Counted from the first letter of the stretch, positions 5,941 to 33,264 are shown. The stretch is DNA of 41,273 nt from Archaeoglobi archaeon JdFR-42 (GCA_002010305.1 MTND01000038.1:1-41273), one strand, 5' to 3'. Notes: a model not told the origin generated them from the sequence alone. Made by a program: numbers and translations.

Positions 5941-5954
5941 CTTTCACATGAAAA
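5941..5954 (+). promoter_or_regulatory. element palindrome site 1
   Basis: CTTTCACATGAAAA, one mismatch from the TTTTCAYRTGAAAA consensus. It is followed by GGGAGGGG and the integrase start 24 nt later. Confidence 0.7.
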
Positions 5955-5978
5955 CAAAATAGGGAGGGGTGAATTGTT

Positions 5979-7184
5979 TTGCAGGTCTATGATGTGCACA
6001 GGTATGAAAAGAAGCTGTCCTATACTGAAAATAGAATTAAGAAGTTAGAAAATAGTAGTGTTATTAAATTAATTTTCCAGTTCAGGGATGCATGTTTTGC
6101 ATCAGGGATAAAGGCTCCCAGGATAGAGAAGCATTTAGACAATCTGAGCAGGATTGCCAAATGGCTCGGAAAGAGCTTCGAAGATACAACAAAAGAGGAT
6201 ATTGAGAAAATCCTGGCAAGGCTGGAGAGGGCTAATGCCCTGTCAGACTGGACAAAATACGATTACAAGAGGACGATCAAGACATTCTTTACCTGGCTGG
6301 GAAAAAAGGAGATTGTAGAATGGATTGTTCTAACAATTCCATCAAAAAACAAGCTTCCCGATGAGATCCTGACAGAAGAGGAGATCCAGAAGATGGTGGA
6401 TGCTTGTGAGAACCTGAGAGATAAAGCCATGGTTGCAGTGCTGTATGAGAGCGGAACAAGGGTTGGAGAGTTCCTGAAAATGAAGATCAGAGATATTGTT
6501 TTTGACAATAAGGGAGCTGTGATTCAGGTAACAGGCAAGACAGGAGATAGAAGGATCAGGCTGGTTGCTTCTGTTCCTTATCTTGCTCAGTGGCTGGATG
6601 CCCATCCACTGAAGCATAACAGGAATGCCTTTGTATGGCTCTCTTTGCAGAGGAACCTGAATATAGAGAGGAATGGGAATAAACCAATGGAGTATGATGC
6701 TTTAAGGATGCAGTTAAAGAAGATAGCGAAGAGAGCAGGGATTGAGAAAAGGATATATCCCCACCTGTTCAGACATTCAAGAGCCACTCATTTAGCTAAA
6801 TGGCTTACTGAAGCCCAGATGTGCGAGTTCTTTGGATGGGTTCAGGGCTCAGATATGCCCAGGATATACGTGCATCTTTCAGGAAGAGATGTGGATGATG
6901 CAATTCTGAGTATGTATGGCATTGAAAACAGGGAGATGGAAAAGCCCAAGATGGAAGTTGTGAAATGCGATAGATGCAAGGCTATCAATCCAAAAGATGC
7001 CCAGGTCTGCATGCGTTGTGGGATTCCTCTTGTTGATGCGGTGGATGAGTGGTATTGGGAAAAGAAGAAGGAGGAAGCTCTTACTGCCTATGTGATGAAT
7101 TCTACTTTCGGGAAAGCTATAATGAACATGGCAAAAGAAATGCAAGAGTTGAAGATGATTCTGGAGGAAATGAGGAAAAAGTAA
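5979..7184 (+). CDS. tyrosine recombinase integrase with C-terminal zinc ribbon
   Basis: 401 residues. An N-terminal SAM-like core-binding domain (about 20-110) precedes the catalytic domain, which carries ESGTRVGEFLKM (first Arg), HLFRHSRATHLA (HxxR) and YVHLSGRDVDDAIL (nucleophile Tyr). A C-terminal CDRC...CMRC zinc ribbon and a short helix follow, as in several archaeal integrases. It catalyses integration at and excision from tRNA-Asn. The start is a TTG at 5979 after GGGAGGGG; it is supported by the decayed copy near 37917, which is similar from this point on. The gene is intact and not split by att, unlike SSV-type integrases. It is the only gene between attL and the leftward operon end. 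Confidence 0.93.
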   Translation: MQVYDVHRYEKKLSYTENRIKKLENSSVIKLIFQFRDACFASGIKAPRIEKHLDNLSRIAKWLGKSFEDTTKEDIEKILARLERANALSDWTKYDYKRTIKTFFTWLGKKEIVEWIVLTIPSKNKLPDEILTEEEIQKMVDACENLRDKAMVAVLYESGTRVGEFLKMKIRDIVFDNKGAVIQVTGKTGDRRIRLVASVPYLAQWLDAHPLKHNRNAFVWLSLQRNLNIERNGNKPMEYDALRMQLKKIAKRAGIEKRIYPHLFRHSRATHLAKWLTEAQMCEFFGWVQGSDMPRIYVHLSGRDVDDAILSMYGIENREMEKPKMEVVKCDRCKAINPKDAQVCMRCGIPLVDAVDEWYWEKKKEEALTAYVMNSTFGKAIMNMAKEMQELKMILEEMRKK

Positions 7185-7185
7185 C

Positions 7186-7422
7186 CTATTCTCTCTTCAT
7201 TTTAATAAGTGGGTTCTTGAGAGTAAGAACTTTCATGGGCTTTCCATTCTCGTCTTCCCTGATGAACGTGGTTACCTTCGGTATAACTACAACACTTTTA
7301 CCCTGTTTTCCCTTGCTCAATGCTCTAAGCTCCTCTATAACTGCCTTTTCACCGAGCCTTTCCAGTTCCTCTATTTCACGTTCCAGCTTTTCCAATTCTT
7401 TCAGTTCTCTGGTTGTAACCAT
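7186..7422 (-). CDS. small protein, candidate antitoxin
   Basis: 78 residues. The N-terminal half is a charged coiled-coil-like helix (KELEKLEREIEELERLGEKA); the C-terminal half is strand-rich (SVVVIPKVTTFIRED, MKVLTLKNP). It starts 4 bp after the BrnT/DUF4258-like gene with GAGGATGAGATA before the ATG. Toxin-first order and small size suggest the partner of that toxin. No DNA-binding fold is clearly visible, so the role is inferred from position only. It is the last gene of the leftward train and ends 2 bp from the integrase. Confidence 0.55.
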   Translation of the reverse strand: MVTTRELKELEKLEREIEELERLGEKAVIEELRALSKGKQGKSVVVIPKVTTFIREDENGKPMKVLTLKNPLIKMKRE

Positions 7423-7426
7423 TATC

Positions 7427-7711
7427 TCATCCTCTTATTTTCTTGTTATATAACCTTTTTTCAGCATCGGTAGAATCTCTTGCAGTTTTCAATCTGTAAT
7501 TGTTACCCCATGACCTTTTGAGAAAGATTGTAAGATAGCGACCACTGTAAGGGTTTCTTGCCAGAATTTTATAGTTGTTTTTCCCAAGATAGATTCTAAG
7601 ATGCTTGTTTATCAGAGCTTCAATTACCTCATTGATTGAAACATTATGCTTCCTCATGTGAAGTTCGATTATGTGATTCCATCTTATTATCCAGTGTCCT
7701 ATTACAACCAC
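7427..7711 (-). CDS. BrnT/DUF4258-like candidate toxin
   Basis: About 94 residues. The N-terminal HWIIRWNHIIELHMRKHNVSINEVIEAL and the C-terminal YRLKTARDSTDAEKRLYNKK match the pattern of the RelE-fold BrnT/DUF4258 RNase toxins (TARD-T-EK-Y ending). The GTG at 7711 has no nearby ribosome site. The frame is open further upstream to the previous stop, where GAGGTGATAGA precedes an ATC codon, so the true start is uncertain. Downstream lies its possible antitoxin. Confidence is moderate because the family is divergent. Confidence 0.55.
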   Translation of the reverse strand: MVVIGHWIIRWNHIIELHMRKHNVSINEVIEALINKHLRIYLGKNNYKILARNPYSGRYLTIFLKRSWGNNYRLKTARDSTDAEKRLYNKKIRG

Positions 7712-7753
7712 TTTATCGAGCTTTCTACGTCTTCTTCTGATTCTATCACCTCA

Positions 7754-8183
7754 TCAGAACCACAGTATCCTTATCTCCCCTCTGAGATACTTAATCTTAG
7801 CAGTAATCTTCTGAATATCCCTTGCAGTCATAGTATCGAGAGTTCTCTTTAATGTCATCCATGAAGGAGGATATTCCCTTTCGTATCCGAGAGTTCTTAA
7901 AAGCTCCATGTTCTCCATGCACCACTTTTCCATCTCCCTTAAGCTCATTCCGTTCCTCACCATGAAGTAGGTTAAAGCTGTAAGAAATACGGGGTCATAG
8001 GGTTTTCTTCCCCTCCCCTTATGTTCCTTTCTTGGAACCATCGTTCTGACTGCATCTATGACAAGCTTGAGGCATGGCTCAGACATCCTGCAGAAGATAT
8101 CTCTATCGCATTTTAACGTGTAACAAAATTCATGTCCATCGGTGGGGCTATGTCTTATACTTCCCACACAAGACATGGAACCT
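7754..8183 (-). CDS. truncated transposase-like protein (N-terminal domain only)
   Basis: About 140 residues. The core, PRKEHKGRGRKPYDP-FLTALTYFMVRNGMSLREMEKW, followed by a helix-rich SWMTLKRTLDTM segment, resembles the N-terminal helix-turn-helix part of IS4/IS5/IS1182-like transposases. No DDE catalytic domain follows; the protein stops after KIKYLRGEIRILWF. It is either a transposase remnant or a domesticated DNA-binding protein. The start is uncertain: ATG 8183 overlaps the upstream gene by 29 bp, and a later ATG occurs at about 8085. There are no terminal inverted repeats around it, and the gene fits neatly in the operon, which favours domestication. Confidence 0.5.
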
Positions 8184-8442
8184 TCGCTCCATTCTCCTGG
8201 TATCTTGCTTCTTTGGTAGCCCTGTATTTCCTGCCATTCCATGTTACAAAGAAGGTAGCTCCAAAGGGAGCTATCGCAAAAGCCTTATGTTTTCTTGGAT
8301 CTGGGAAGATGGTTCTGATTCCGGTTCCTTTTTTACCGTAGGTTACGTAGTCTTCCCCTTCGAACCTTGCCTGTTTTTTGAATCTTATTGTTGTGGGTTC
8401 TCTTTGTGGTCGAGTTCTCCTCCTTACCCTAACCACATCCAT
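8155..8442 (-). CDS. small basic protein
   Basis: 95 residues, rich in Arg and Lys (VRVRRRTRPQREPTTIRFKK at the N-terminus) and in predicted strands (AFAIAPFGATFFVTWNGRKY). No known family recognised. The ATG at 8442 follows GGAGGGG closely. The third codon, GTG 8436, would sit exactly 18 nt below the palindrome at 8455, the spacing seen at other gene joints, so the protein may begin there. One of a run of tiny basic proteins that may bind DNA or form a particle. Confidence 0.65.
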   Translation of the reverse strand: MDVVRVRRRTRPQREPTTIRFKKQARFEGEDYVTYGKKGTGIRTIFPDPRKHKAFAIAPFGATFFVTWNGRKYRATKEARYQENGAKVPCLVWEV

Positions 8443-8454
8443 CCCCTCCTTCTA

Positions 8455-8468
8455 TTTTCATGTGAAAA
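8455..8468 (-). promoter_or_regulatory. element palindrome site 2
   Basis: TTTTCATGTGAAAA in the gap between two small-basic-protein genes; on the gene sense strand it is followed by GAAGGAGGGG and the start codon region 12-18 nt away. Confidence 0.75.
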
Positions 8469-8488
8469 AGAAAAGAGGGTTTACTGGC

Positions 8489-8788
8489 TCATGGGTTATC
8501 CACCAGCCTGTGCTTCAGTGCTTCGACACTGTTGTATTTAATGTCCTGTTCTTTCGAGATCCGTTTTGGTATCCCAACTACTGCATAGCCTTTATCCGTC
8601 TTAACTACCCTGAAGTTCCACCAGTATCCCCTCCATTTCTGTTTTCTCCATTTCTCAGCAAGTGATTGAGCCCCTTTCTTGGTCTTTTTAATTGCCAAAA
8701 CCTGTCTGACAAAGCCATCGAGGATCACTACTTTACCGAGTCCACCTGTTGTCAATCGCAGATACCTTAACTTTCGCTCAGCTACCAT
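8489..8788 (-). CDS. small basic protein
   Basis: 99 residues from the ATG at 8788, which follows TAGGAGGAAG; the longer frame to 8815 overlaps the upstream gene. The sequence is basic and strand-rich: ERKLRYLRLTTGGLGKVVIL, a KKTKKGAQSLAEKWRKQKW helix, then RVVKTDKGYAVVGIPKRI. The strand-helix-strand-strand plan is shared loosely with the neighbours at 8800-9087 and 9639-9860. Function unknown; nucleic-acid binding is plausible from charge. Confidence 0.65.
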   Translation of the reverse strand: MVAERKLRYLRLTTGGLGKVVILDGFVRQVLAIKKTKKGAQSLAEKWRKQKWRGYWWNFRVVKTDKGYAVVGIPKRISKEQDIKYNSVEALKHRLVDNP

Positions 8789-8799
8789 GTTTCTTCCTC

Positions 8800-9087
8800 C
8801 TACTGTCTCTTCCACACCGCTCCGAGCTCCTTGAAATCGTAGTATGAGACAACGTAGTCTTTCCTGCTGTATCTCGGCTTTGATGTGGCTATTCTCACGT
8901 TCTTCATCTCCTGCCTTTTCTTTGCATTCTTGGCTATCACTTCAGCCTCTGATTTCGTGTCGCAGCCGATAACGACCTTGTTTATCTTTCCCTTGGCTTT
9001 TCCCCAACCACTCATGAACTCGTCGGTCATGGTAACGTAGTAGTTCTTTGTAGGAATCCTCCAGTATTTCCCGGTCTTTCTTGCCAT
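8800..9087 (-). CDS. small basic protein, paralogue of the 9639-9860 product
   Basis: 95 residues. The middle reads KVVIGCDTKSEAEVIAKNAKKRQEMKNVRIATSKPRY, then KDYVVSYYDF. This parallels the 9639-9860 product (VKTKAEAERVKNSVSKKPDVKKVIVRRL, then DYGVTLDKKWGVWVY): a strand, a KSEAE/KAEAE helix, a KNV/KKV strand, then an aromatic strand. The two look like diverged duplicates of one alpha/beta mini-domain. ATG start 4 bp downstream of the previous gene's stop. Function unknown. Confidence 0.65.
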   Translation of the reverse strand: MARKTGKYWRIPTKNYYVTMTDEFMSGWGKAKGKINKVVIGCDTKSEAEVIAKNAKKRQEMKNVRIATSKPRYSRKDYVVSYYDFKELGAVWKRQ

Positions 9088-9091
9088 GAAA

Positions 9092-9361
9092 TCACCTCAG
9101 AAGCTTGAAATCTCTCACGAAATTGAGAACAGACTCCTTTAACCCTCTCCTGTCTCTCGGAGAGATATATACCATCCTCTCAGGTCTCTTCGATGGATAG
9201 AGCCATAGCCTGTATCTCACGTTCCCTCCATTTGTTGTTCCCTCTTTCTGGGCAATGACTCTCACTGTTTTTCCATTCCTTGATACATCGAAGACTCTCG
9301 TTCCCGGTGCCGTCGAATAAGAAGAGACGAATATCTCGTTCTTCCTACCAGTCTTCGCCAT
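9092..9361 (-). CDS. small basic protein
   Basis: 89 residues from ATG 9361 (MAKTGRKNEIFVSSYS). The frame extends three codons further up, but the SD-like GGTAGGTGGTAGG lies just before this ATG. Strand-rich and basic (RVFDVSRNGKTVRVIAQKEG, YRLWLYPSKRPERMVYISPRDRRG). The N-terminal MAK.R. and high charge resemble the 58-residue protein at the head of the operon. No family recognised. Confidence 0.65.
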   Translation of the reverse strand: MAKTGRKNEIFVSSYSTAPGTRVFDVSRNGKTVRVIAQKEGTTNGGNVRYRLWLYPSKRPERMVYISPRDRRGLKESVLNFVRDFKLLR

Positions 9362-9388
9362 ACCTACCACCTACCTATCTTCAAAAAT

Positions 9389-9646
9389 CTACCTCACAAA
9401 CTCCACCTTGTCCCCAAAGAGCTCTGCTTTCCCGAAGAATCCGTAGTATTTCCCTCTCTTGTCGTAGAGCTCGAATCCTTTTCCTGCCCTCAAAACATAC
9501 CATCTCTTCCTCTTCCCTGCCACTCCTGCAAATCTGGTCGCTTCACTGTAAGCTGGTGTGAACTCACCCACGTAGATCCTGTAACCTCTCTTCTGGTATC
9601 TCTGAAGGGCTTTTGGAGGTCTTTTCATTAATTGCAGCTTAACCAC
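9389..9646 (-). CDS. small basic aromatic protein
   Basis: 85 residues from a GTG at 9646 preceded by AAGGAGGGG. The upstream ATG of the open frame lies inside the neighbouring gene and has no ribosome site. Rich in Arg, Lys, Tyr and Phe: RPPKALQRYQKRGYRIYVGEF, KRKRWYVLRAGKGFELYDKRGKYYGFFG. Strand repeats with basic turns suggest an all-beta mini-domain. Overlaps the upstream small gene by 8 bp. Function unknown. Confidence 0.65.
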   Translation of the reverse strand: MVKLQLMKRPPKALQRYQKRGYRIYVGEFTPAYSEATRFAGVAGKRKRWYVLRAGKGFELYDKRGKYYGFFGKAELFGDKVEFVR

Positions 9647-9860
9647 GGTATCCCCTCCTTGAGTAAACCCATACACCCCATTTCTTATCCAGAGTAACTC
9701 CATAATCCCTGTAAATCCTCTTTCCGAGCCTTCTGACGATCACTTTTTTAACATCCGGTTTCTTCGACACCGAGTTTTTTACCCTCTCTGCTTCAGCCTT
9801 TGTTTTCACCGGAATCAGATAGCCAGTTCCGTTCATTTCCTTGACAACAATCCCTTTCAC
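9639..9860 (-). CDS. small basic protein, KAEAE-type mini-domain
   Basis: 73 residues from a GTG at 9860 following GGAGGGATCACA. The order is strand (GTGYLIPVKT), helix (KAEAERVKNSVSKKPD), strand (VKKVIVRRLGKR), strand (KKWGVWVYS). It is the closest visible relative of the 8800-9087 product. The start GTG overlaps the stop of a possible 22-codon upstream gene (GTGA), a coupling arrangement. Function unknown. Confidence 0.65.
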   Translation of the reverse strand: MKGIVVKEMNGTGYLIPVKTKAEAERVKNSVSKKPDVKKVIVRRLGKRIYRDYGVTLDKKWGVWVYSRRGYRG

Positions 9861-9925
9861 TGTGATCCCTCCTCAGAAATCGCTGAAATGCAGTTCTTTC
9901 CTCTTTCTTTCTCAATTCCCAACAC
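9857..9925 (-). CDS. possible 22-residue peptide gene
   Basis: A short frame beginning GTG at 9925 after GGAGGTGAAGAA and ending with a TGA that overlaps the next gene's GTG start (GTGA). The strong ribosome site and overlap suggest translation. A competing frame from an ATG at 9996, directly after the HerA stop, runs through the same bases to 9793 (67 codons, CREVKKC motif) but overlaps the next real gene heavily. Only one of them is likely used. Confidence 0.3.
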   Translation of the reverse strand: MLGIEKERGKNCISAISEEGSQ

Positions 9926-9996
9926 TTCTTCACCTCCCTACAGGTCTTCTTCAAATTCAGCCCTTCCTGGCTTATTTCAACCAGAGAAGGACACAT

Positions 9997-11226
9997 TTAT
10001 CCAACTGGAGAGAGTCCTATTTTGATGATGTAGGGCCTTGTGGGCTCCAGAACATTTCCATAGATGCCCTCTCCCTTCCCTATGTCATCGGCAAGGTAGT
10101 AGAAGCTCACAAGATCGTAGAGATTGACAGAGAGAGTTTTCAGGAGCTTATTGAGCTTCGAATCAGGAATGTAGCCCAGGATAAACACTTCATCCACGTT
10201 TTCTATCACCACTTTCTCCATCGAATGAGGGGATTGAGTCTCCAAAAAGACTGTCCATCCGTATGATCTTGCCAGAACTGTTACTGCCCTGATTATGGCC
10301 TGTTTAGCTGGGTTCATGCCCTCCTCAGGGCAGTAGGTATGGGCTTCGGTAATCCCTATGAAGCTCCGGGTTCTCTTAAAATGCCGTTCCATCATGGTCA
10401 GAACTTGGGAGACTATGAACTGCTTTATCTCGTAGTCTCCTATATCCGACAGATCGATGATGTTGATGATCTCCCGATCTATGTAATCCAGAAACGTGTT
10501 ATCCCTTTCAGTCTCGATGAGGCTGTCGTATTCTAAAAGCTCGCAGAACCTCTCTACACTGGCCTGCATGGTTCTGAAATAGGGATCTTCTTCGTAGTTC
10601 TGCAAGATTTCATTGAGCTTTATCCTGAACCTCCGTATGTCCCTTCTTGATCTTACATCCCTCCATGCTCTTTCAATTATTCTATCAGCAATAGATTGAC
10701 CCATCTTCTTACCGATATAGGCCATCAGGGCTGAGTATTCCAGTTCCTGCAAAGGAATCTTGAAGTTCCTTCCTGGAACCAAATATCTCTGAACTGGCTT
10801 ACCATTGGATCTCAACCTCACCGGCTCCACGTTCATTTCCACCAGTCTTTCAGGAGAGGGATGTCTCAGGAAATCGAGATCCCCTCTCTTTTCCTGGAAT
10901 ACCACGATGGAATCATCCCTCGTGGTTCGATAGTGAGCCTGTACAAAGTTTCTGAGGGTGTTAGTTTTGCCTATGCCCTTTCCTGCCACCACTAAAACCA
11001 CTTTTCCTTCCTCTACCCCCCTCCTGCGGGGGTTGTAGTAGTAGGGTTGAGTCCAGAACCGTTTAGGAGAGATTTTATAGCCCAATCTGACTGAATAATC
11101 GCTTCCTCTCCTTTTGTGCTTAATATGGATGGGGAGCTCTTCCTCTTCATCGAAGAGCCTGATGGATGGTTCATACTCCTGGAAAGAAATTGAAGGAGTG
11201 TAGTCAAAGATCCCCATCACCCACAC
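9997..11226 (-). CDS. HerA/FtsK-superfamily ATPase
   Basis: About 409 residues. Walker A is GKGIGKTN at about residue 80, Walker B is the hydrophobic strand FIGIT ending in Glu-Ala-His (ITEAH), with a sensor-like FLETQSPHS further on. These mark the HerA/FtsK family of hexameric DNA or substrate pumps. No NurA partner is encoded nearby, so end-resection is unlikely. In a mobile element next to membrane and secreted proteins it more likely packages DNA or powers transfer or assembly (inference). The start is GTG 11226 or ATG 11217; both overlap the upstream gene's end by 14-23 bp. Confidence 0.82.
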   Translation of the reverse strand: MWVMGIFDYTPSISFQEYEPSIRLFDEEEELPIHIKHKRRGSDYSVRLGYKISPKRFWTQPYYYNPRRRGVEEGKVVLVVAGKGIGKTNTLRNFVQAHYRTTRDDSIVVFQEKRGDLDFLRHPSPERLVEMNVEPVRLRSNGKPVQRYLVPGRNFKIPLQELEYSALMAYIGKKMGQSIADRIIERAWRDVRSRRDIRRFRIKLNEILQNYEEDPYFRTMQASVERFCELLEYDSLIETERDNTFLDYIDREIINIIDLSDIGDYEIKQFIVSQVLTMMERHFKRTRSFIGITEAHTYCPEEGMNPAKQAIIRAVTVLARSYGWTVFLETQSPHSMEKVVIENVDEVFILGYIPDSKLNKLLKTLSVNLYDLVSFYYLADDIGKGEGIYGNVLEPTRPYIIKIGLSPVG

Positions 11227-11854
11227 ACCCTTCCTGGCCTATATTATATTCCGACGTAGCCTTCATTCCAGCCTTCACACTGTGAAGGCTCTCCAGAACT
11301 ATGAAAACCTCCTCTGGAATGGTTACATAGCGTAATCTTCTTTTTCCTGACCCTTTAATTCTCTTGGAGATTTTTAGCAAACCATTTTCCTCTAAAATCC
11401 TCTCATGATCGTAGATTGATTGGAGGTTTTTTCCCAGCTCATCTTTGAAGTCTGATGTGAAGCCTTTGCCTCCCTTCTCGAAAACAAAAGTGAGATAATC
11501 GTAGGTGGCCGGATTGCTCTCCTGCAACTGCTCTATTTTCTTGATGATCTCATTTTCACCTTCGAATAGCTCTTCTTCCTCGTCATCTTCCTCTTCCTCG
11601 ATTATGATGGGAGAGTTATCCCTCTCTTCGACAGTCTCTGCATCCTTCAGCATTGTCAGAACGGCCATGAAGCTCTTGTCCACTTCATCCATTGCTTCAA
11701 TTGCCTTCGTCAATACCTCTGCAAGATACTCCTTGTCGATGTATTCCTTTTCCAGCTCCTTTAATGCCCTGATTAGCTGGTTGTTCCTCAGTTCCATCGA
11801 TCTTGAGATCAGGATCTCTATCTTTTCAATAGGAATCTTGATGAATTTGCTCAT
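11204..11854 (-). CDS. acidic-linker protein with C-terminal winged helix
   Basis: 216 residues: a helical N-terminal half (about 1-80), a highly acidic linker (EEEEDDEEEE near residue 90), then a winged-helix-like segment (about 115-195; YDYLTFVFEKGGKGFTSDFKDEL, then ILEENGLLKISKRI and strand RRLRYVTIPEE). It may be a DNA- or ATPase-binding adaptor. It overlaps the upstream membrane protein by ATGA and the HerA gene by about 20 bp, so it is translated with them. Confidence 0.7.
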   Translation of the reverse strand: MSKFIKIPIEKIEILISRSMELRNNQLIRALKELEKEYIDKEYLAEVLTKAIEAMDEVDKSFMAVLTMLKDAETVEERDNSPIIIEEEEDDEEEELFEGENEIIKKIEQLQESNPATYDYLTFVFEKGGKGFTSDFKDELGKNLQSIYDHERILEENGLLKISKRIKGSGKRRLRYVTIPEEVFIVLESLHSVKAGMKATSEYNIGQEGCVGDGDL

Positions 11855-12753
11855 TCTTCCACCTCATAGGTTCTCTGCCTTAATTTGTTGATGGCATTCC
11901 TTATTTTGTCCTCGTGAACTTCCTGGGCTTCCCTGGGAATGAAATCATCCCTCTCCATCCCCATCCCTAAACCCAGAGGGGGAATGTAGTCTCTTCTATC
12001 CGGATAGATCCTGTATGGATTGGATTTGCTGGCCACCCTAACCAGATTCTCCGTCATTCTCAAAAGCTCGATGTTCAGGTCTCGCATCTTCTGGAAAGCG
12101 TGTCTGTAAGCCCTGTTTTCCTCGATAGTCAATTCAACCCGATCTGGTGGGATCACTCTGAAGGTGTGAGCATCCACCGACATGAGAGTGTGAGCATGGA
12201 TTATGATGTGCTGCTCTCCCACTGTAATGAGTTCCTCCGGGACTTCTATGCGGTGTTTCCCTCTTTTGAAAGCCTTTGCAAGAGCCTGCATTCCGTTTAC
12301 GAGAATGGAGTTATGCCTTGGATAGTAGTAGAAGACATAGAAGCCCTTGTGTCCGTCAAGGCTCAATCTGTCGTAGCTGTCTGTTTTACCCAGAACTGTT
12401 ACATTGCTACCCATTCCGGTTCTTTCATCTGTCCAGAGAATTAGAGTTTTCTTTAATTTGGTTAATCCCTTGTAGTTCTTCTTTAATCTCTTTACTTCCT
12501 CTTCCTTGATTGCCTCTCTTAACTCTTCCTCCACCGATTTCTTGACCTCCATGTCGATAAGCTTCTTCAATTCAGATTTGCTCATTTGAACTCCGTATTC
12601 CTCTGCAACCTTTTCAGCTTCCTGGATCTTCTTTTCCCTCTGCTTGCTCCTTTTTGCTATCAGATATACAGTCAGAGATATGGCAATAACAACTAAAAAT
12701 GTGAAGATGGTTGTAACCGCATCTCTTGAGATATCTAACCCCACTAATGCCAC
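11851..12753 (-). CDS. membrane-anchored coiled-coil protein
   Basis: 300 residues from a GTG at 12753, which overlaps the previous stop (TAGTG) behind GGAGGGAACG. One N-terminal TM (IFTFLVVIAISLTVYLIA) is followed by a basic, then helical region (about 35-95, KSELKKLIDMEVKKSVEEEL), a mixed alpha/beta domain (about 100-215) with repeated HI/IHAHT strands, and a C-terminal tail. The bulk should face the cytoplasm next to HerA. Family not recognised; a secretion or assembly platform component is a guess from context. Confidence 0.7.
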   Translation of the reverse strand: MALVGLDISRDAVTTIFTFLVVIAISLTVYLIAKRSKQREKKIQEAEKVAEEYGVQMSKSELKKLIDMEVKKSVEEELREAIKEEEVKRLKKNYKGLTKLKKTLILWTDERTGMGSNVTVLGKTDSYDRLSLDGHKGFYVFYYYPRHNSILVNGMQALAKAFKRGKHRIEVPEELITVGEQHIIIHAHTLMSVDAHTFRVIPPDRVELTIEENRAYRHAFQKMRDLNIELLRMTENLVRVASKSNPYRIYPDRRDYIPPLGLGMGMERDDFIPREAQEVHEDKIRNAINKLRQRTYEVEE

Positions 12754-25169: not shown

Positions 25170-25186
25170 AGGGTCGTTCCCTCCTT

Positions 25187-25339: not shown

Positions 25340-25357
25340 GTTCTCACCCCCATTTTA

Positions 25358-25371: not shown

Positions 25372-25381
25372 TTGGAAAAAA

Positions 25382-25990: not shown

Positions 25991-26008
25991 GTTCTCACCC
26001 CCTTTAAT

Positions 26009-26022
26009 TTTTCACACGAAAA
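26009..26022 (-). promoter_or_regulatory. element palindrome site 7
   Basis: TTTTCACACGAAAA in the same cassette as sites 6 and 8 (TGA stop, TTTTTTCC, palindrome, 18 nt with GGGGGTGAG, start codon CTG). Confidence 0.75.
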
Positions 26023-26031
26023 GGGAAAAAA

Positions 26032-26736: not shown

Positions 26737-26754
26737 TGATTATACCTCCTTCAA

Positions 26755-26768
26755 CTTTCACATGAAAA
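26755..26768 (-). promoter_or_regulatory. element palindrome site 8
   Basis: CTTTCACATGAAAA between the AAA ATPase stop (TGA, then TTTTTTCC) and the DUF1257 start, which is exactly 18 nt away. Confidence 0.75.
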
Positions 26769-26777
26769 TGGAAAAAA

Positions 26778-28307
26778 TCAGAGCTCAATTCTTCTTGCCT
26801 TCGAGCCAGATTCTGAATCCCTGATGCTTGCAGGCTTGCAGTAGATCTCAGCCCACTTCCTTATCCTCTCGATCTCATCTTTCCTCTTCTTACTCAACGG
26901 CATATATCCCTGTATCTCCTCGATGATGTGCTGGTTGTCAAGCTCCAGACCTTCATCAAATGCCCTATACAGGGCTTCAGTTATGATTTGTTCAATTTCA
27001 GCACCACTGTAACCCTCTGTGAGCCTTGCGAATTCTGATATGTCGAAGTTTCCCGGATCTCTTCCTATTTTATTCAGATGAATCCTGAAGATCTCTTCCC
27101 TCTCACTTCGTGAGGGGAGATCCACGTGGAATATGTCATCGAATCTGCCAGCTCGTGTCATCTCTGGTGGAAGTTTGAAGGGATCATTACAGGTAGCCAC
27201 CACGAAAACAGGTTTCTGCCTTTCCTGCATCCAGGTAAGGAGTTGTCCGATAACTCTTGCTGTTACTCCACTGTCGGTCTCTCCTGAGCTTGATATACCT
27301 GCAAAAGCCTTTTCGATTTCATCCACGAATAAGATACAGGGAGCAATTGACTCAGCTATTTTCAGGGCTTCTGCCATGTTCTTTTCCGATTCTCCTACAA
27401 GGCTACCGAAAACCTTTGACATGTCCAGCTTAAGCAGTGGCATCCCGAAGAGCTTTGCAGTTGCCTTTGCAGTCAGGGATTTTCCGGTCCCTGGAGCTCC
27501 TACCATCAATATTCCTTTGGGTGGTCTTAACCCGAATTCCCTTGCTTCCCTGCTGAATGCCTTTTTCCTTCTCATTAACCAGGATTTTAGGTTTTCAAGA
27601 CCTCCTATGTCCTCCATACTCTCCATTGAGTGGTAGTATTCCAGTATGCCGGTCTTCTTGATGATCTGCTCCTTTTCCGTTATGATTGTGGATGGATCAA
27701 GGTTTCTCTTTGCCACTATGGATTTTGCCAGGACATTTTCAAATTCATCAAGAGTTAATCCAAGACCTGCATTCAGGATCGTGTCTGTATTGCCGTTAAG
27801 CTCGATGTTGAGATTCAGGGCTTCATTGACATCCTTGACCATTACTTCAAGGATCTTCCTGAGCTCTTCCTTTTCAGGTAGGGGTATGTCGATCACTGTA
27901 ACGTATTTCTGAAGGTCTATGGGAATGTCAGTGATTGGAGCAAGGAGTATCAGGGTTGAATAGCTGTTTTTGAGCTCAAAGTAGATGTCTTTAAACATCC
28001 TTATGGTCAAAGGCTCCTGGATAAACGGGTGGATGTCTTTCATCAGCATTACTGCCTTTTCCTGGTTAATCAGTTCTGTAAAAGCCATCAGGGAAGAATC
28101 AATGCTCACTGCTCCAGGATCAACATCTTCCAGATCTGCTGTCAGCTTCTGGATGCCCTTCGTGGCAGACCATACGTAAAAGGTCTTTTCAAGATCAGTA
28201 GTGATCTCTGACAGCTTTTGGATGACTCTCTGCTCTTCTGAACTTGTGAGCCAGATTATCGGGTATCTGGCTCGAATAAGGGTTTTGAGCTCCTCCTCCC
28301 AGTTCAT
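26778..28307 (-). CDS. Ycf46-type AAA ATPase
   Basis: 509 residues. An N-terminal alpha/beta domain (about 1-230; RARYPIIWLTSSEEQRVIQKL, TLILLAPITDIP) characteristic of Ycf46 proteins precedes one AAA module: Walker A GAPGTGKS, Walker B CILFVDEIEKAF, sensor 1 VVATCNDP, arginine finger region RAGRFDDIFHVDLP, sensor 2 YSGAEIEQII. ATG at 28307 shares its A with the upstream TGA and follows GGGGTGATC. Such ATPases remodel proteins; the substrate is unknown, with DUF1257 and DUF2997 products as likely partners. Not a second Cdc48: only one ATPase domain and a different N-domain. Confidence 0.88.
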   Translation of the reverse strand: MNWEEELKTLIRARYPIIWLTSSEEQRVIQKLSEITTDLEKTFYVWSATKGIQKLTADLEDVDPGAVSIDSSLMAFTELINQEKAVMLMKDIHPFIQEPLTIRMFKDIYFELKNSYSTLILLAPITDIPIDLQKYVTVIDIPLPEKEELRKILEVMVKDVNEALNLNIELNGNTDTILNAGLGLTLDEFENVLAKSIVAKRNLDPSTIITEKEQIIKKTGILEYYHSMESMEDIGGLENLKSWLMRRKKAFSREAREFGLRPPKGILMVGAPGTGKSLTAKATAKLFGMPLLKLDMSKVFGSLVGESEKNMAEALKIAESIAPCILFVDEIEKAFAGISSSGETDSGVTARVIGQLLTWMQERQKPVFVVATCNDPFKLPPEMTRAGRFDDIFHVDLPSRSEREEIFRIHLNKIGRDPGNFDISEFARLTEGYSGAEIEQIITEALYRAFDEGLELDNQHIIEEIQGYMPLSKKRKDEIERIRKWAEIYCKPASIRDSESGSKARRIEL

Positions 28308-28444
28308 CAGATCACCCCTGTAAAGAAGGAGCAATCCCAGGCAGGATTCACGAAAAACAGGAAGATGTCCAGGTTCTTTGCGGAACAGTAGCCTTTGCTC
28401 AATCCAGTTCTCTTAAAATAAAGGCAGTCATCACATTCTCTCAT
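28307..28444 (-). CDS. 45-residue cysteine-rich protein
   Basis: ATG at 28444 behind GGAGGGGTGCAAT: MRECDDCLYFKRTGLSKGYC, then SAKNLDIFLFFVNPAWDCSFF. Four cysteines (CDDC...C...C) suggest a zinc or iron-sulphur knuckle. Its TGA overlaps the AAA ATPase start (TGATG), so the two are translated together. Upstream codons of the open frame precede the ribosome site and are not used. Confidence 0.65.
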   Translation of the reverse strand: MRECDDCLYFKRTGLSKGYCSAKNLDIFLFFVNPAWDCSFFTGVI

Positions 28445-28532
28445 ATTGCACCCCTCCCTTAAAATTGAGCCCTCCCTGGCATTTTTCAGCCAGAATGAGG
28501 ACACGGATTTAAAAAATTGAGGGAAAGGTTAT

Positions 28533-28788
28533 GAGCATCCACCTTGGGCAACCTGAGGTGTCCGGGGAGGATTGCATGTCGCATCCCTGCCCTATTGAGG
28601 GATCATCGTGGACAGAGCCTGCATGTCCACTCCCTCATTGAATCCCCCAGGCTCATACACCCAGGTTGCTTTCCTGGAATGGGCTTGCTTCCTCCGGGAA
28701 GGCTCAGAATTAAGGTCTTGGTGTCGCCACCTGGAGGGTTTTGCAGGTGAACCCTCTCAGGCTCTGAGTCCCAGCTCCCGGAGACATT
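28533..28788. ncRNA. GC-rich structured RNA candidate, about 255 nt
   Basis: This gene-free stretch is clearly more GC-rich than its surroundings and packed with complementary segments. GCAACCTGAGGTGT (28549) pairs with ACACCCAGGTTGC (28658) as a 13-bp helix with one bulge. Inside it are ATCCCT/AGGGAT and GTGGACA/TGTCCAC hairpins. The 3' part has CTTCC/GGAAG, GGTG/CACC and CTCAG/CTGAG hairpins, and CACCTG/CAGGTG interleaved with GAGGGT/ACCCTC, a pseudoknot pattern. Open frames across it lack ribosome sites. Strand is unresolved: a TATA-like TTTAAAAAA precedes it on plus, and the same site is a T-run terminator if it is read on minus, where CTTAAATAC may be the promoter. It does not match RNase P or SRP RNA signatures I know. 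Confidence 0.55.
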
Positions 28789-28811
28789 ACTACTAATCTA
28801 CTAATTACGGT

Positions 28812-28835
28812 AATACTAATTTTAGAATTAGTATT
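28812..28835. repeat. 10-bp inverted repeat beside the RNA candidate
   Basis: AATACTAATT-TTAG-AATTAGTATT, perfect arms. It could be an operator or terminator stem between the RNA candidate and the AbrB operon. Confidence 0.55.
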
Positions 28836-28845
28836 TAAGTATTTC

Positions 28846-28859
28846 TTTTCACATGAAAA
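28846..28859 (+). promoter_or_regulatory. element palindrome site 9
   Basis: TTTTCACATGAAAA between the RNA candidate and the rightward AbrB operon, about 95 bp upstream of the AbrB ATG; no ribosome site follows directly, unlike most other copies. Confidence 0.72.
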
Positions 28860-28954
28860 TAGAAATGTGTTGAAGTGGGCACAAACTTTTAAGTTATGCC
28901 CACCCTATATCAACATTTAAATAACTGTTAGTATAACTGTTAATAGGTGATGGC

Positions 28955-29113
28955 ATGGGAAAGGGGAATGTAACAACAGTTTACAGGAACAAGGAGGGAC
29001 AGTATCAGACCACAATACCACGTGGTCTGGCTGAAGCAATGGGTCTGGAGAAGGGGTCAAAACTTGAGTGGATGATCGAGGGTAAGAATACCTTCAAGGT
29101 GAGGATCTTATGA
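28955..29113 (+). CDS. AbrB/SpoVT-type DNA-binding protein
   Basis: 52 residues: VTTVYRNKEGQYQTTIPRGL, then AEAMGLEKGSKLEWMIEG and a terminal strand (TFKVRIL). This is one swapped-hairpin AbrB domain, dimeric in family members and usually a transcription regulator or antitoxin. ATG at 28955 after AGGTGATGGC. Its stop overlaps the next ATG (ATGA). A TATA-like ATTTAAATAA lies about 40 bp upstream. It probably regulates its own operon containing the serine recombinase. Confidence 0.82.
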   Translation: MGKGNVTTVYRNKEGQYQTTIPRGLAEAMGLEKGSKLEWMIEGKNTFKVRIL

Positions 29114-29340
29114 GGGAGAGCATATTCCAAGGAGATACCCTTCGGAAAATAGCGATGAAAAGAGGAGAAGTGATCCCTGGATTCGATCCAAAAGGCAGAA
29201 AAGCAAACCACAGACCGAGATGCCCTCATTGTTTAGGAGTGGTCAATGTCGCCCTCGTTAGGGAAGGACATGGACTTAACAGGAAGCTCGTTAAAATCGG
29301 CTATTGGTGCAAACAGTGTGAGGTATTCTTGAGAGAGTAG
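29110..29340 (+). CDS. zinc-ribbon protein
   Basis: 76 residues. A basic N-terminal half (LRKIAMKRGEVIPGFDPKGR) leads to a zinc ribbon with CPHC and CKQC pairs about 28 residues apart. Small single-ribbon proteins of this kind bind nucleic acids or partner proteins. Encoded between the AbrB regulator (4-bp overlap) and the serine recombinase (15-bp gap); since that recombinase lacks the usual C-terminal zinc ribbon, this protein might supply it (inference). Confidence 0.68.
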   Translation: MRESIFQGDTLRKIAMKRGEVIPGFDPKGRKANHRPRCPHCLGVVNVALVREGHGLNRKLVKIGYWCKQCEVFLRE

Positions 29341-29355
29341 GCAGGTGAGGATCTT

Positions 29356-30090
29356 ATGAAGGTTGCAGGGTATGTGAGGGTGAGCACAGCAGATCAGGCT
29401 GAAGGGTTCAGCCTTGAAGCTCAGGAAGACCAGATCAGGAAGTGGTGTGAAGAGAACTCTTACGAACTCGTGAAGGTTTACAGAGATTCAACATCAGGTA
29501 AGCTCCTTGAGAGGGAAGCACTGTTGCAGATGCTCGATGATGCGGAGAAGGGTCTTTTTGATGTGGTGGTTGTAACCGAAGCAGACAGGATAAGCAGAGA
29601 TCTCGACCTAAAGGGATGGATAAAGATTAACCTGATGCATTCTGGGGTTGATCTCATAGAGCTGAACAAGAGGGAGATCCAGACACCTGAGGATCAGTTC
29701 TTTAACCGGTTGATTGAAGCATTTGCAGAGTATGAAACCCTGAGAAGGCAGGCAAGGATAGAGAGGGGAAAGCTGAAGGCTGTGAGGAACGGGATTCCTA
29801 TAACAAGGATGCCAAGAGGTTACAGAAAAAAGAAAGATAAAGTATGGATTGTGGAAGATGAGGCTGAGAAGATCAGGCAGATTTTCAGAGACTACTTGGA
29901 AATAGGGAGCATAAGGGCAGTGGCAAGGAAGCATAACATGCCATATTCAACCGTTAAGAAAATCCTGAGAAATCCTGTTTATGCTGGATACTTCAGCCAT
30001 AACGGCAAGCTCGTAAAGGGGAGTTTTGAGCCTATAATTCCCCTTGATGTGTTTAAGAGGGTGAATCCTGGTTTTGTCAGCAATAAGTAA
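29356..30090 (+). CDS. serine recombinase (resolvase/invertase family)
   Basis: 244 residues. The N-terminal resolvase domain (about 1-140) begins VAGYVRVSTADQAEGFSLEAQ with the nucleophile Ser, and contains VVVTEADRISRD and the FFNRLIEAFAEYETLRRQARIERG helix. A short recombinase domain follows (about 150-235; PRGYRKKKDKVWIVEDEAEKIRQIF, YSTVKKILRNPVYAG). Large serine integrases continue with a zinc ribbon and coiled coil; here the protein stops early, so it is a compact form. It is a second recombinase besides the tyrosine integrase and may resolve multimers, invert DNA or move this operon. Confidence 0.9.
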   Translation: MKVAGYVRVSTADQAEGFSLEAQEDQIRKWCEENSYELVKVYRDSTSGKLLEREALLQMLDDAEKGLFDVVVVTEADRISRDLDLKGWIKINLMHSGVDLIELNKREIQTPEDQFFNRLIEAFAEYETLRRQARIERGKLKAVRNGIPITRMPRGYRKKKDKVWIVEDEAEKIRQIFRDYLEIGSIRAVARKHNMPYSTVKKILRNPVYAGYFSHNGKLVKGSFEPIIPLDVFKRVNPGFVSNK

Positions 30091-30104
30091 AAAAGGAGGG
30101 GAAA

Positions 30105-30126
30105 AGAGCTCCGGGAGCTGAGCTCT
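30105..30126 (+). terminator. GC-rich hairpin after serine recombinase
   Basis: AGAGCTC...GAGCTCT with inner AGCTC-CGG-GAGCT. The motif GCTCCGGGAG is also found at the edge of the RNA candidate (28773-28783, reverse) and before attR (about 37765-37775). Probably the operon terminator. Confidence 0.45.
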
Positions 30127-30241
30127 GGGAGGGACTCATCTCTCACTACTATTTTTAGAATTCCATAAATAGTTTTTGGTAAACCGTTGATTGTTATACT
30201 ATCCCTTCAGTTTGTCTTTGTGTAGATACTTCATAAAATAA

Positions 30242-30257
30242 TAAGTCCGAGGACTTA
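30242..30257. promoter_or_regulatory. inverted repeat upstream of the DprA operon
   Basis: TAAGTCC-GA-GGACTTA in the 300-bp gap (30091-30391) between the serine recombinase and dprA-like gene. The gap is AT-rich, has a TATA-like GTTTATAGA near 30349, and otherwise shows no gene. Confidence 0.45.
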
Positions 30258-30391
30258 GTAATACTTAACTTCGGATAATTGTCTTGTCTCATATTTTGTT
30301 AATTTTTGTTTGTTGAATTGTTAGACCAATGGATCAATAAAATGAAAAGTTTATAGATGTGAATTGAAAAAGAAATATATGAGGAGATGAC

Positions 30392-31120
30392 ATGAGTGTG
30401 GAGATAAAAGAGATAGCTCCAATTGAGCTTTTAGGTCGTAAGTTAAACGAATTTGAGAGAAAATATGCTCCCCCTGTATTATACGTCGCTGGATCGATGA
30501 AAATACCACTACCTGAGCCCCGTGTGGCAGTCATTGGAACAAGAAAACCATCCTCTGATGGAATTAAAGCAGCATCTAAAATAACGAAAGAACTTGTTAA
30601 AAATAAGGTTATTGTTGTTAGTGGCCTTGCAAGGGGTATTGACACTGTCGCACACGAGACAGCAATAAAATGTGGAGGAAAAACAATTGCTGTTTTGGGA
30701 ACTCCTCTCAATGGATTTTATCCTCGTGAAAACAGATCTTTGCAGGAGTTGATAATGAGAGAGCATTTAGCAGTTAGTCAGTATCCTGTAGGTTATATTA
30801 CCAAGCCAAAGCACTTTGTTCTCCGAAATAGAACGATGGCGTTGATTTCCAACGCAAGTATTATTGTTGAAGCTGGAGAAAGTAGCGGTGTAGTTTCTCA
30901 AGGATGGGAAACTCTAAGACTTGGTAGACCGCTCTTCTTCTGGAAGTTACTTGCTGAAAAAGATATAAAATGGGTAAAAGAAATGATTAATTACGGTGCC
31001 AATGTCTTTAAAAATATCAATGACTTGAGGCGTGCTATAAGAGAGCTGATACCACCACCTGCTGAAAAGCCTTCTGAAGTGCTTTCTGTAACAGAGCTGG
31101 GGCTAACAGACGTTGTTTAA
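30392..31120 (+). CDS. DprA/Smf-like SLOG-domain protein
   Basis: 242 residues, close to one Rossmann-like DprA core without the extra winged helix of competence DprA. Motifs: RVAVIGTRKPSSDG, VVSGLARGIDTVAHETA, KTIAVLGTPLNGFYPRENRSL, FVLRNRTMALISNASIIVEAGESSG. Family proteins bind single-stranded DNA or, in the SLOG group, nucleotide ligands. It is followed 6 bp later by a phosphoribosyltransferase gene. Such SLOG/PRTase pairs have been discussed as nucleotide-based conflict systems (recalled literature), so defence is more likely than competence. ATG behind GAGGAGATGAC; the island is AT-rich relative to its neighbours. Confidence 0.88.
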   Translation: MSVEIKEIAPIELLGRKLNEFERKYAPPVLYVAGSMKIPLPEPRVAVIGTRKPSSDGIKAASKITKELVKNKVIVVSGLARGIDTVAHETAIKCGGKTIAVLGTPLNGFYPRENRSLQELIMREHLAVSQYPVGYITKPKHFVLRNRTMALISNASIIVEAGESSGVVSQGWETLRLGRPLFFWKLLAEKDIKWVKEMINYGANVFKNINDLRRAIRELIPPPAEKPSEVLSVTELGLTDVV

Positions 31121-31126
31121 TTTCCT

Positions 31127-31852
31127 ATGTCCATCGAAAATGAAAACGTAATAATAAATGAACTCGAATTTTGCTCTATCTTTTCCTATTGCCCTAGAGA
31201 TAATTCTGATGAGGGATTATTAGCAAAAAGGCTCATGAATCATATAAAAAATGATACAATGATAAAAATCAAGAGGACAGTCTTTATAAAAAATGGGGGA
31301 GTGACAGTTGAGAAAGAACTGTCTGCATCGCAATATGTTGCAGAAGTATTAAAAAAACTAGTGAATGGAGGTTATTTCTCAGATTTCTTCCAAGAAGATA
31401 CAATCCTAATTCCCATGCCTAGAGCTACGCCAATTAAAAAAAGTCAACTTTGGCCATCATTTCAGATAGCAAAGGCGATGGAAAATGAGGGGCTTGGGGT
31501 CGTTAGACCTGTATTAGTAAGAACAAAACCCGTTTTAAAGTCCTCATTAGCTTCACCAAAGCAGAGACCCAAACCAATAGACCACTACGAAAGCATGGGA
31601 ATTAATAAAATGGTGGAACTGGGCTCGAAGAAATTAATATTTGTAGACGATATTGTGACGAGGGGTCACACATTTATGGGGGCTGCTTGGCGACTTAAAG
31701 AAGCTTTTTCAAATGTCGGGATAACTGCATTTGCTGCTATGCAAACTATTAGTAACAAATCTGAATTTAAAAATCACTTTTACCCAGCTAAAGGCACAAT
31801 AAATTATAGAAGAGACGAAAGGGATTGCATACGCAATTGGAAACCAGTTTAG
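31127..31852 (+). CDS. ComF-like phosphoribosyltransferase-domain protein
   Basis: 241 residues. The C-terminal half has the type I PRTase fold: TILIPMPRATPIKKSQLWPS, then the PRPP loop KLIFVDDIVTRGHTFMGAA. The N-terminal 80 residues are unfamiliar and lack the ComF zinc finger. It either uses PRPP to make or remove nucleotides, or senses them. Gene order DprA-like then PRTase with a 6-bp gap suggests a two-component system. No ribosome site before the ATG, consistent with coupling to the upstream gene. Confidence 0.82.
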   Translation: MSIENENVIINELEFCSIFSYCPRDNSDEGLLAKRLMNHIKNDTMIKIKRTVFIKNGGVTVEKELSASQYVAEVLKKLVNGGYFSDFFQEDTILIPMPRATPIKKSQLWPSFQIAKAMENEGLGVVRPVLVRTKPVLKSSLASPKQRPKPIDHYESMGINKMVELGSKKLIFVDDIVTRGHTFMGAAWRLKEAFSNVGITAFAAMQTISNKSEFKNHFYPAKGTINYRRDERDCIRNWKPV

Positions 31853-32060
31853 TTAAAATAATAAAAAATTGGAGATTACACCGTCTTTTCTTATTTAATC
31901 CCTTCCATTTTGCTGTTAGCCTCTTTAAGAAATTGATTGTCCAAGGTGTTAAATAGATATCAATTCTTGGATGGTCTTTTAGGAGTTGAGCTTCTTTGAG
32001 GCGGTCGATAGCGTTCGAATTAGATTTTAAAAAAGTGAATCGAAAAATAGATAAGGATAT

Positions 32061-32576
32061 TTGAATAGAAAATGGTCAGTTATGAATGACTTTCTAAGTA
32101 TCCTTGTAAGCTTGGCTATAGCCCTAACATCTGTTGGAATTTCTCACCTTATTTATCAAAGGAATAAATTCAAATCGAATTTTAAAGGTGTGCTTGCAGA
32201 ACTGGACTACAATTTATTGACCCTCAAACTCATAAAGATGACTCTTGAAGAAGGAGAGAAGAAAGCAACAAATAATGAAGAGTTTCGTTTTCCCCTTGTG
32301 GAATTGGAAACGTTCACTTTCAATCATTTCATCCTCGAAGGATATCTGATGAGATTAGATATGAGAGATAAAGAATTTTTAATGGGTATTTATAAATTAT
32401 TTGAGGCTATAAACAGGTATATTGAATATTACGAAGAGACCAAACTTAATCTATTATATCGTTCAGCATATGGTGGGGAGTTTAGAGAGACTGTACGACA
32501 AGACCTTAAGACCCTTATATCAGAAGTTGAGCCCAAGATAGAGGAGTTTATTCAAAGGCATTCAAATTATCTATGA
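32061..32576 (+). CDS. N-terminally anchored membrane protein of the cargo island
   Basis: Up to 171 residues from a TTG at 32061 behind AAGGAT; an ATG at 32082 is the alternative. One N-terminal TM (FLSILVSLAIALTSVGISHLIY) precedes a helical cytoplasmic domain (about 35-165; VLAELDYNLLTLKLIKMTLE, LFEAINRYIEYYEETKLNLL). Topology is like many small membrane effectors of defence systems, and it follows the DprA/PRTase pair after a 208-bp gap. Effector role is an inference; family not recognised. Confidence 0.65.
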   Translation: MNRKWSVMNDFLSILVSLAIALTSVGISHLIYQRNKFKSNFKGVLAELDYNLLTLKLIKMTLEEGEKKATNNEEFRFPLVELETFTFNHFILEGYLMRLDMRDKEFLMGIYKLFEAINRYIEYYEETKLNLLYRSAYGGEFRETVRQDLKTLISEVEPKIEEFIQRHSNYL

Positions 32577-32591
32577 TCTTCGCATTCAGCT

Positions 32592-32954
32592 TTATGGAAT
32601 TGGATCACGATAATGGTCGATAAGTTTTCTCATTATCTCTGTGCCCGGTTCTCCCATATCCTCAAGTTTGTTTACAATTTCTTCCATTTGTTTTTTAATA
32701 TCTTGAAATTCTTTAGCCAACTCTTTAAACTTATTCATGTCTGTTACAAATCTTTCTGGATTACTGACGATAAGAATTTCTCGTTTCACACCCCCAGGAA
32801 TGTCTTCCTCTGGTTTTACTACAACCCATAGATCTCTTGATTTGTAAATCAGAGTTCCAGACGGATTGGTTACTTTTTTAATATTGTCCAATACCTTATC
32901 TATTTCATTCATAAAATCAGAAAATTTTTTTAGTAATTTTAGAAGATCTGACAT
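32592..32954 (-). CDS. hypothetical coiled-coil protein
   Basis: 120 residues: helical N-terminus (LLKLLKKFSDFMNEIDKVLD), a small strand segment (TLIYKSRDLWVVVKPEEDIPG, EILIVSNPERFV) and a C-terminal coiled coil (KFKELAKEFQDIKKQMEEIV). Leftward, converging on the cargo island with 15 bp between. Family not recognised. Confidence 0.6.
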   Translation of the reverse strand: MSDLLKLLKKFSDFMNEIDKVLDNIKKVTNPSGTLIYKSRDLWVVVKPEEDIPGGVKREILIVSNPERFVTDMNKFKELAKEFQDIKKQMEEIVNKLEDMGEPGTEIMRKLIDHYRDPIP

Positions 32955-33060
32955 GAATTGTGATTAACTACTCAAGATACATAATATTTTCCTACCCTTT
33001 TAACCATGCATAAGTCATTGTCAATTAACCATCCCCTTCTTTATCCACTTCCAGAATAGA

Positions 33061-33264
33061 TTAATCTCTTAAATTTTCACATGAAAATTGATTACTGCCA
33101 TTCCCGTTTCCGTTGTTCATGCTCTCCATAACTGCCTTGACAAGTTCCATAAGCTGTTTCTGGTGCTCCATGAACTTCTTTTGCTGTTCCATGACTATGT
33201 AGTAAAGCTGGTTAATTTGATGAGTTGTTGGGACACTGCCAAGCCATTCAATTACTCCCGTTAT
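33061..33264 (-). CDS. small helical protein, start uncertain
   Basis: The frame reads VIEWLGSVPTTHQINQLYYIV, MEQQKKFMEHQKQLMELVKAV, then an Asn/Gly repeat and QFSCENLRD. It follows the 247-residue gene by a few bases, with AAGGGGGGAG just before, but the first possible codons there are non-standard (ATA); the first ATG is at 33192. Palindrome site 10 lies inside its last codons. The VIEWL motif recalls the VIEWL of the 320- and 620-residue proteins. Function unknown. Confidence 0.45.
   Translation of the reverse strand: MTGVIEWLGSVPTTHQINQLYYIVMEQQKKFMEHQKQLMELVKAVMESMNNGNGNGSNQFSCENLRD
33074..33087 (-). promoter_or_regulatory. element palindrome site 10
   Basis: TTTTCACATGAAAA inside the 3' end of the small helical gene, about 120 bp upstream of the next leftward gene. 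Confidence 0.7.

Follow-up and report, generated by a model that had tools for sequence, protein, structure and literature searches.

A 14-bp palindrome repeated at the gene joints of an integrated archaeal element: probable operator sites of one regulator

The stoperators of the cluster A mycobacteriophages (L5, Bxb1) are asymmetric sites of a known repressor, set mostly one way round with respect to transcription (PMC6550527, PMC9283540). Two further systems began as repeats in sequence. The SPBRE of SPbeta is a 15-bp intergenic repeat that was predicted in silico and has since been shown to bind the master repressor MrpR (PMC10516654), and mycobacteriophage BPs carries 12-bp palindromic sites (CGACATATGTCG) across its genome (PMC4557955). 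Both are precedents for repeats noticed in sequence that turned out to be repressor sites (PMC10516654, PMC4557955). In archaea, F55 keeps the SSV1 provirus silent from sites that overlap the TSS and the BRE (PMC5569661). The letters TTTTCACATGAAAA occur in none of the papers searched, and a search there for stoperators in archaea matched only an unrelated cyanophage paper.

We analysed a window of 41,273 nucleotides, the whole stretch MTND01000038.1:1-41273 from Archaeoglobi archaeon JdFR-42. It contains an integrated virus-like element of ∼32 kb, within which a 14-bp palindrome with perfect dyad symmetry, TTTTCAYRTGAAAA, occurs in about ten copies. The left repeat CTGTCGGCGGCG (5869–5880) lies within the 3′ end of tRNA-Asn (5807–5881), and a tyrosine integrase follows this tRNA (Pfam 6e-25). 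The element is 89% coding. Its genes include those for an S8 protease, a DUF2341 protein, a 1071-aa surface-like protein, a serine recombinase, DprA and DUF5131, as well as an AAA ATPase gene followed by a DUF1257 gene. The P-loop KGIGKT suggests that the element's ATPase is of the HerA/FtsK kind; a Pfam search with this protein gave no match. The coordinates of the sites and of the features discussed are collected in Table 1.

Table 1. Palindrome copies, element boundaries and candidate regulators (window coordinates)
Feature	Coordinates	Strand	Sequence and context
Site 1	5941..5954	+	CTTTCACATGAAAA, one mismatch; strong hairpin plus T5 before, integrase ribosome site after
Site 2	8455..8468	-	exact; 46-nt gap between 8489-8815 and 8155-8442
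Site 3	13809..13822	-	exact; in coding end of 13787-15271, ahead of small ORF 13656-13790
Site 4	16925..16938	-	three mismatches; 33-nt gap between 16952-20167 and 16607-16918
Site 5	21626..21639	-	exact; upstream of structural unit; TATA-like TGTAAATA 1 nt downstream
Site 6	25358..25371	-	exact, CACGTG centre; cassette TGA-T6-CC-palindrome-GGGGGTGAG-TTG; 42-nt gap
Site 7	26009..26022	-	one mismatch; cassette as at 25358; 41-nt gap
Site 8	26755..26768	-	one mismatch; cassette as at 25358; 41-nt gap, DUF1257 gene (ATG 26736) next
Site 9	28846..28859	-	exact; upstream of leftward unit headed by AAA ATPase; TATA-like CTTAAATA 6 nt downstream; adjoins rightward MazE/AbrB-like gene
Site 10	33074..33087	-	exact; in coding end of 33061-33276
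Eleventh, weak match	34491..34504	+	two mismatches; inside ORF 34309-34578
Integrated element	5869..37809		12-bp direct repeats CTGTCGGCGGCG at 5869-5880 and 37798-37809
Terminator-like hairpin	5889..5940	+	-30 kcal/mol, T5; between tRNA-Asn and site 1
Winged-helix protein	11204..11854	-	candidate regulator; homologue in same-genome remnant at C1:64284
MazE/AbrB-like small DNA-binding protein	28955..29113	+	adjoins site 9; candidate regulator
HTH_20 (ArsR-like) protein	37460..37756	+	near attR; candidate regulator

The 31,943 bases of the element that were scanned gave 6, 9 and 10 matches at zero, up to one and up to two mismatches, respectively, where 300 dinucleotide-preserving shuffles of the same bases gave means of 0.003, 0.07 and 1.1. 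The ten coordinates listed by the sequence-only reading were all right, with six exact copies, three carrying one mismatch and the copy at 16925 carrying three. The additional weak match at 34491 is probably due to chance. Not one of 29 control palindromes, made by permuting the half-site TTTTCA, gave a single match at up to one mismatch, and the window flanks (9.3 kb of host DNA) contain none at up to two mismatches, in agreement with the earlier reading. Across the 2.15 Mb genome there are 10 exact copies, six of which lie in the element (1.5% of the genome) and four in the remaining 2.1 Mb; the density in the element is ∼100 times greater. The proposed restriction of the copies was supported, for the element together with a remnant of a related one, which holds one further exact copy; of the four exact copies elsewhere, two belong to a host repeat module. 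Read in gene sense, the central dinucleotide is CA, CG or TG in mixed numbers, and the site is without polarity.

Eight of the ten sites are wholly non-coding; those at 13809 and 33074 lie within coding ends, as had been claimed. A single site is present in each of the co-directional leftward gaps of 33, 41, 41, 42 and 46 nt, and the assignment of the palindromes to gene joints was borne out. Overlapping joints and gaps of 26 nt or less have no site, site 3 in its coding end excepted. A 106-nt gap follows site 10, and larger gaps of 136 and 232 nt are without a site.

The sequence-only reading had also put the palindrome at a fixed 18 nt from the start codon. This distance is exact at five joints (8436 GTG, 13790 CTG, 25339 TTG, 25990 CTG and 26736 ATG), but at several of them it depends on assumed GTG, CTG or TTG starts, some of which have in-frame ATG alternatives (8442 ATG, at 12 nt, for site 8455; 25966 ATG for the 25990 CTG), and it is not seen at 21626, 28846 and 33074. 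Site 5941 has an ATT at 18 nt and a TTG at 24 nt, and site 16925 has an ATG at 6 nt. The distance from the palindrome to the Shine-Dalgarno sequence, 5–8 nt, is the sturdier regularity and the better description. The cassette said to be shared by 25358, 26009 and 26755 (TGA-T6-CC-palindrome-ribosome site) was confirmed.

For the sites at 21626 and 28846, which lie upstream of the element's two main leftward units, the TATA-like sequences on the minus strand score 7/8 and 8/8, respectively, in a simple consensus scan over 45 nt, where the background is 23% for scores of 7/8 or better and 2% for 8/8. By the same scan, the seven joint and integrase sites have no convincing TATA in the 45 nt upstream (best scores 5–7, with only 26009 reaching 7), so that most of the sites, seven of ten, lie away from promoters recognisable by this simple consensus. 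The 16 nt before the joint sites contain at least 12 pyrimidines at five of seven sites, compared to 6% of element 16-mers. A run of T5 or longer is present there at four of the seven, against a background of 2%; three of these four sites are similar cassettes and hence not independent. Between 5860 and 14000, no E. coli-type promoter or terminator signal was prominent at the joints scanned. Short poly-U can act as a terminator for archaeal (euryarchaeal) polymerases (PMC7289017).

We consider that the palindromes are DNA binding sites of one dimeric, probably element-encoded regulator, acting as true operators at two promoters and in the manner of stoperators at the joints, and we put the probability of this reading at roughly 0.6. 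It is favoured by the enrichment of the motif, its restriction, its placement at joints, the combination of promoter-linked and promoter-less sites, the pyrimidine tracts and the lack of polarity, and by a remnant copy that precedes a winged-helix gene. At 21626 and 28846, the bound regulator would compete with TBP/TFB for the TATA/BRE next to it. Elongating RNA polymerase would meet it as a roadblock at the internal joints and ahead of the integrase, just after a pyrimidine- or T-rich tract that may itself be a weak archaeal terminator. The integrated element would then be silent, or its gene blocks would be expressed in proportion to the level of the regulator. More tentatively, the joints may form an archaeal stoperator system in which each combines a weak T-tract terminator with a palindromic operator immediately ahead of the next ribosome site, the regulator turning read-through into termination at seven points and silencing the provirus block by block. 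The tight distance between palindrome and ribosome site is not required by a roadblock model and counts against it.

Three element proteins are candidates for the regulator (Table 1). Of the four regulators that the sequence-only reading had named (products of 22449–22799, 34029–34226, 34626–35108 and 37460–37756), none stood out in the tests made. The product of 11204–11854 has a confident C-terminal winged helix in its AlphaFold model, for which Foldseek ranks a Pyrococcus regulator homologue first (1ub9, E 7e-5). The gene lies in the structural operon and has more distant homologues in relatives without the motif, and because of this conservation its link to the palindromes is weak; the protein may instead have a packaging or structural role. 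The structure model of the 34620–35108 product was poor.

The array resembles the L5/Bxb1 stoperators in that one short site occurs in many copies across a temperate element, mostly off promoters in transcribed regions and with few true operators. The parallel drawn with L5 thus holds for the many copies (nine at up to one mismatch, 0.07 expected) and for the mixture of operators and promoter-less sites. It fails for orientation, as the L5 sites are asymmetric whereas the site here is a perfect dyad with a mixed central dinucleotide. Further differences are the archaeal host and a regulator represented by candidates only. Because the site is symmetric, the array is not of the L5 type, while it would work like stoperators.

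SPBRE is similar in having about ten copies of a short repeat in the intergenic regions of one prophage; it differs in lying in bacterial promoter regions under a recombinase-like repressor (PMC10516654), whereas most copies here have no recognisable promoter. As with repeated operators of the SPBRE and BPs kind, the palindrome is largely a property of the prophage. BPs likewise has short palindromic half-sites in several intergenic regions under one repressor (PMC4557955), but it is a bacterial phage with fewer sites, the full site consisting of two half-sites with a variable spacer. With F55, SvtR and AvtR, the likeness is to an archaeal temperate element silenced by a small DNA-binding protein at several sites. 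F55, however, binds tandem ATAGATAG repeats at few promoters (PMC5569661), and the passages of that review consulted describe no array at operon joints. The AvPV1-like pleomorphic proviruses are also integrated at tRNA genes in Archaeoglobi hosts (PMC10919331), but AvPV1 measures 17.9 kb and has a pleolipovirus module, in contrast to the 32 kb, putative FtsK/HerA-like ATPase, S8 protease and DUF2341 of the present element.

The palindrome could instead act in the mRNA, as a hairpin that masks the ribosome site, or that is a target for cleavage or protein binding, and so regulates translation block by block. The constant 5–8 nt to the ribosome site would suit such an element; in folds of several joints the ribosome site pairs with the upstream pyrimidine tract (−20 kcal/mol at 8455), and some departures from the consensus (16925, 26009 and 26755) are G-U compatible on the sense strand. 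We therefore compared the pairing of each site's own flanks with that of flanks swapped between sites, at three flank lengths and on both strands. Own flanks paired no better than swapped ones (p about 0.5–0.8; eight to twelve sites, with limited power), and the earlier suggestion of RNA processing sites gained no support from this test. Moreover, the would-be loop bases at the centre vary without polarity, the departures at 5941 and C1:64257 are C-A in the sense strand, and the stems are AU-rich whereas the host 16S rRNA is 61% GC, hinting at a thermophile. The lack of flank covariation and of central-dinucleotide polarity favours reading the dyad as DNA, and we regard an RNA-level element as unlikely. 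In a search against known RNA families, the tRNA was the sole match within the element; neither this search nor the covariation test supported an mRNA regulatory hairpin.

It is rather improbable that each palindrome is an internal promoter, of a non-TATA, element-specific type starting just upstream of the ribosome site, so that every block would be transcribed separately downstream of a T-tract terminator. The block order (upstream stop, T tract, palindrome, ribosome site, start) with its near-fixed spacing is what such promoters would give, as is the strong hairpin plus T5 between tRNA-Asn and the integrase site. Against this, there is no TATA-like sequence at a usable spacing, and at 21626 and 28846 the same palindrome has ordinary TATA-like sequences next to it. 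We also know of no archaeal promoter that consists of a bare 14-bp palindrome, which weighs against this reading.

The copies outside the element bear on the origin of the regulator. A remnant of a related element on contig 1, at a locus spanning tRNA-Glu to an integrase (C1:80858-82159), has two copies of the palindrome, one exact (C1:59500) and one with a single mismatch (C1:64257). The latter precedes a winged-helix gene (C1:64284), with 13 nt to its ATG; the product of this gene is 64% identical to that of 11204–11854. Genes between the tRNA and the integrase include some that are cas-like, as read from ORF sequences. A box, AAGGCTCATAGAGAG, has three copies in the genome, each with a copy of the motif 8–9 nt away and all of these motif copies outside the element; no other box was found in the genome when one mismatch was allowed. 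With four exact copies elsewhere in the genome, including two in the host repeat module, the sites could belong to a host regulator and have been borrowed by the element, and all three boxes adjoining motif copies would fit this. We think it decidedly unlikely, as only four exact copies are present in 2.1 Mb of host DNA at about one-hundredth of the element's density, and at least one of the three AAGGCTCATAGAGAG modules is situated between the ends of converging genes. Partition, packaging or nucleoid-organising sites independent of transcription, which the many dispersed dyads in a single element might suggest, are very improbable, as the placement follows gene joints and ribosome sites without a cluster and no partition protein was recognised among the proteins searched.

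Relatives with a 48–50% identical ATPase were found in MAGs assigned to Archaeoglobaceae, Archaeoglobus and Ca. Mnemosynella, which puts the host within or close to Archaeoglobi; the searches made found no relative closer than ∼50% ATPase identity. The sequence-only reading had proposed, as a test, that related elements should keep the motif at the corresponding joints. For these distant relatives the test failed: the motif is absent from five of them (ATPase ∼50% identical). A de novo palindrome scan of G016, G017, G023, G033 and G057 gave no array clear of shuffles; in G057, TTTCTCGAGAAA was counted 16 times, with shuffle maxima of 6–12. The absence from five relatives of the motif or a comparable palindrome array counts against the operator reading. 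Among 394 genomes of the phylum, the palindrome-plus-GGRGG cassette occurs three times in the element, once elsewhere in its genome (C7:13100) and once in a single further genome. No relative was found among viral contigs with the ATPase, the 95-aa protein, the AAA protein, a winged-helix alignment or the cassette pattern, nor was there a relative of the ATPase among phage records or IMG/VR contigs. One viral contig carries an integrase relative and lacks the motif in the 6.2 kb examined; a scan of genome contigs with the large surface protein gave no match.

Few controls of lysogeny have been characterised in archaeal proviruses, and those cited here act at promoters. The palindrome offers a sequence by which to trace the regulator of a poorly known group of Archaeoglobi elements. 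If our reading is correct, an element-wide operator array, placed mostly at joints without promoters, would make regulated elongation or termination in archaea directly testable.

The palindrome also occurs in a host module present in three copies in the JdFR-42 genome, where it is followed by a TATA-like TTTGAAAT or TTTTAAAAT and then by AAGGCTCATAGAGAG. The copies on contigs C7 and C39 lie past the 3′ end of a gene for a multi-spanning membrane protein, and the C39 copy is located between converging gene ends. The same genome contains a second integrated locus, bounded by tRNA-Glu and an integrase, in which two copies of the palindrome were found. One gene of this locus is ATPase-like, another is the winged-helix homologue of one candidate regulator of the element (11204-11854), and, judging by the ORF sequences, there is also a cas-like gene cluster.

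In the stretch C10:20000-59999 of the genome G057, which holds a related element without the palindrome, TTTCTCGAGAAA gave 16 matches at ≤2 mismatches, compared with shuffle maxima of 6–12. These matches may belong to another kind of array in that relative.

Within the element, a DUF1257 gene comes after the gene for an AAA ATPase (32–34% identity to phage AAA proteins), as do two small ORFs; these ORFs may be DUF2997-like, and neither gave a Pfam match. A rightward pair consists of a small ORF upstream of a gene with a weak Pfam match to ParE-type toxin. In the rightward block, a DprA-like gene precedes one that we infer from its sequence to be phosphoribosyltransferase-like.

Coordinates of the features described (window positions unless a contig is named)
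Feature	Position	Locus
Hairpin	5889-5940	
Small ORF and toxin-like gene	21920-22431	
ParE-type-toxin-like gene	22150-22431	
AAA ATPase, DUF1257 gene, small ORFs	26032-28334	
DprA-like and phosphoribosyltransferase-like genes	30392-31852	
Integrase-like stretch	37912-38058	
Host module	G000:C15:56430	L018
Host module	G000:C7:14275	L019
Host module	G000:C39:2111	L020
Second integrated locus	G000:C1:59144-82159	L017 + L031
TTTCTCGAGAAA matches	G057:C10:20000-59999	L015-L016

At the integration site, a very stable hairpin (−30 kcal/mol), plus T5, lies between tRNA-Asn and the integrase gene. Immediately to the right of attR, a stretch aligns over 155 nt with the beginning of the integrase gene at 68% identity and is apparently a decayed integrase from an older element at the tRNA-Asn also used by the present one.
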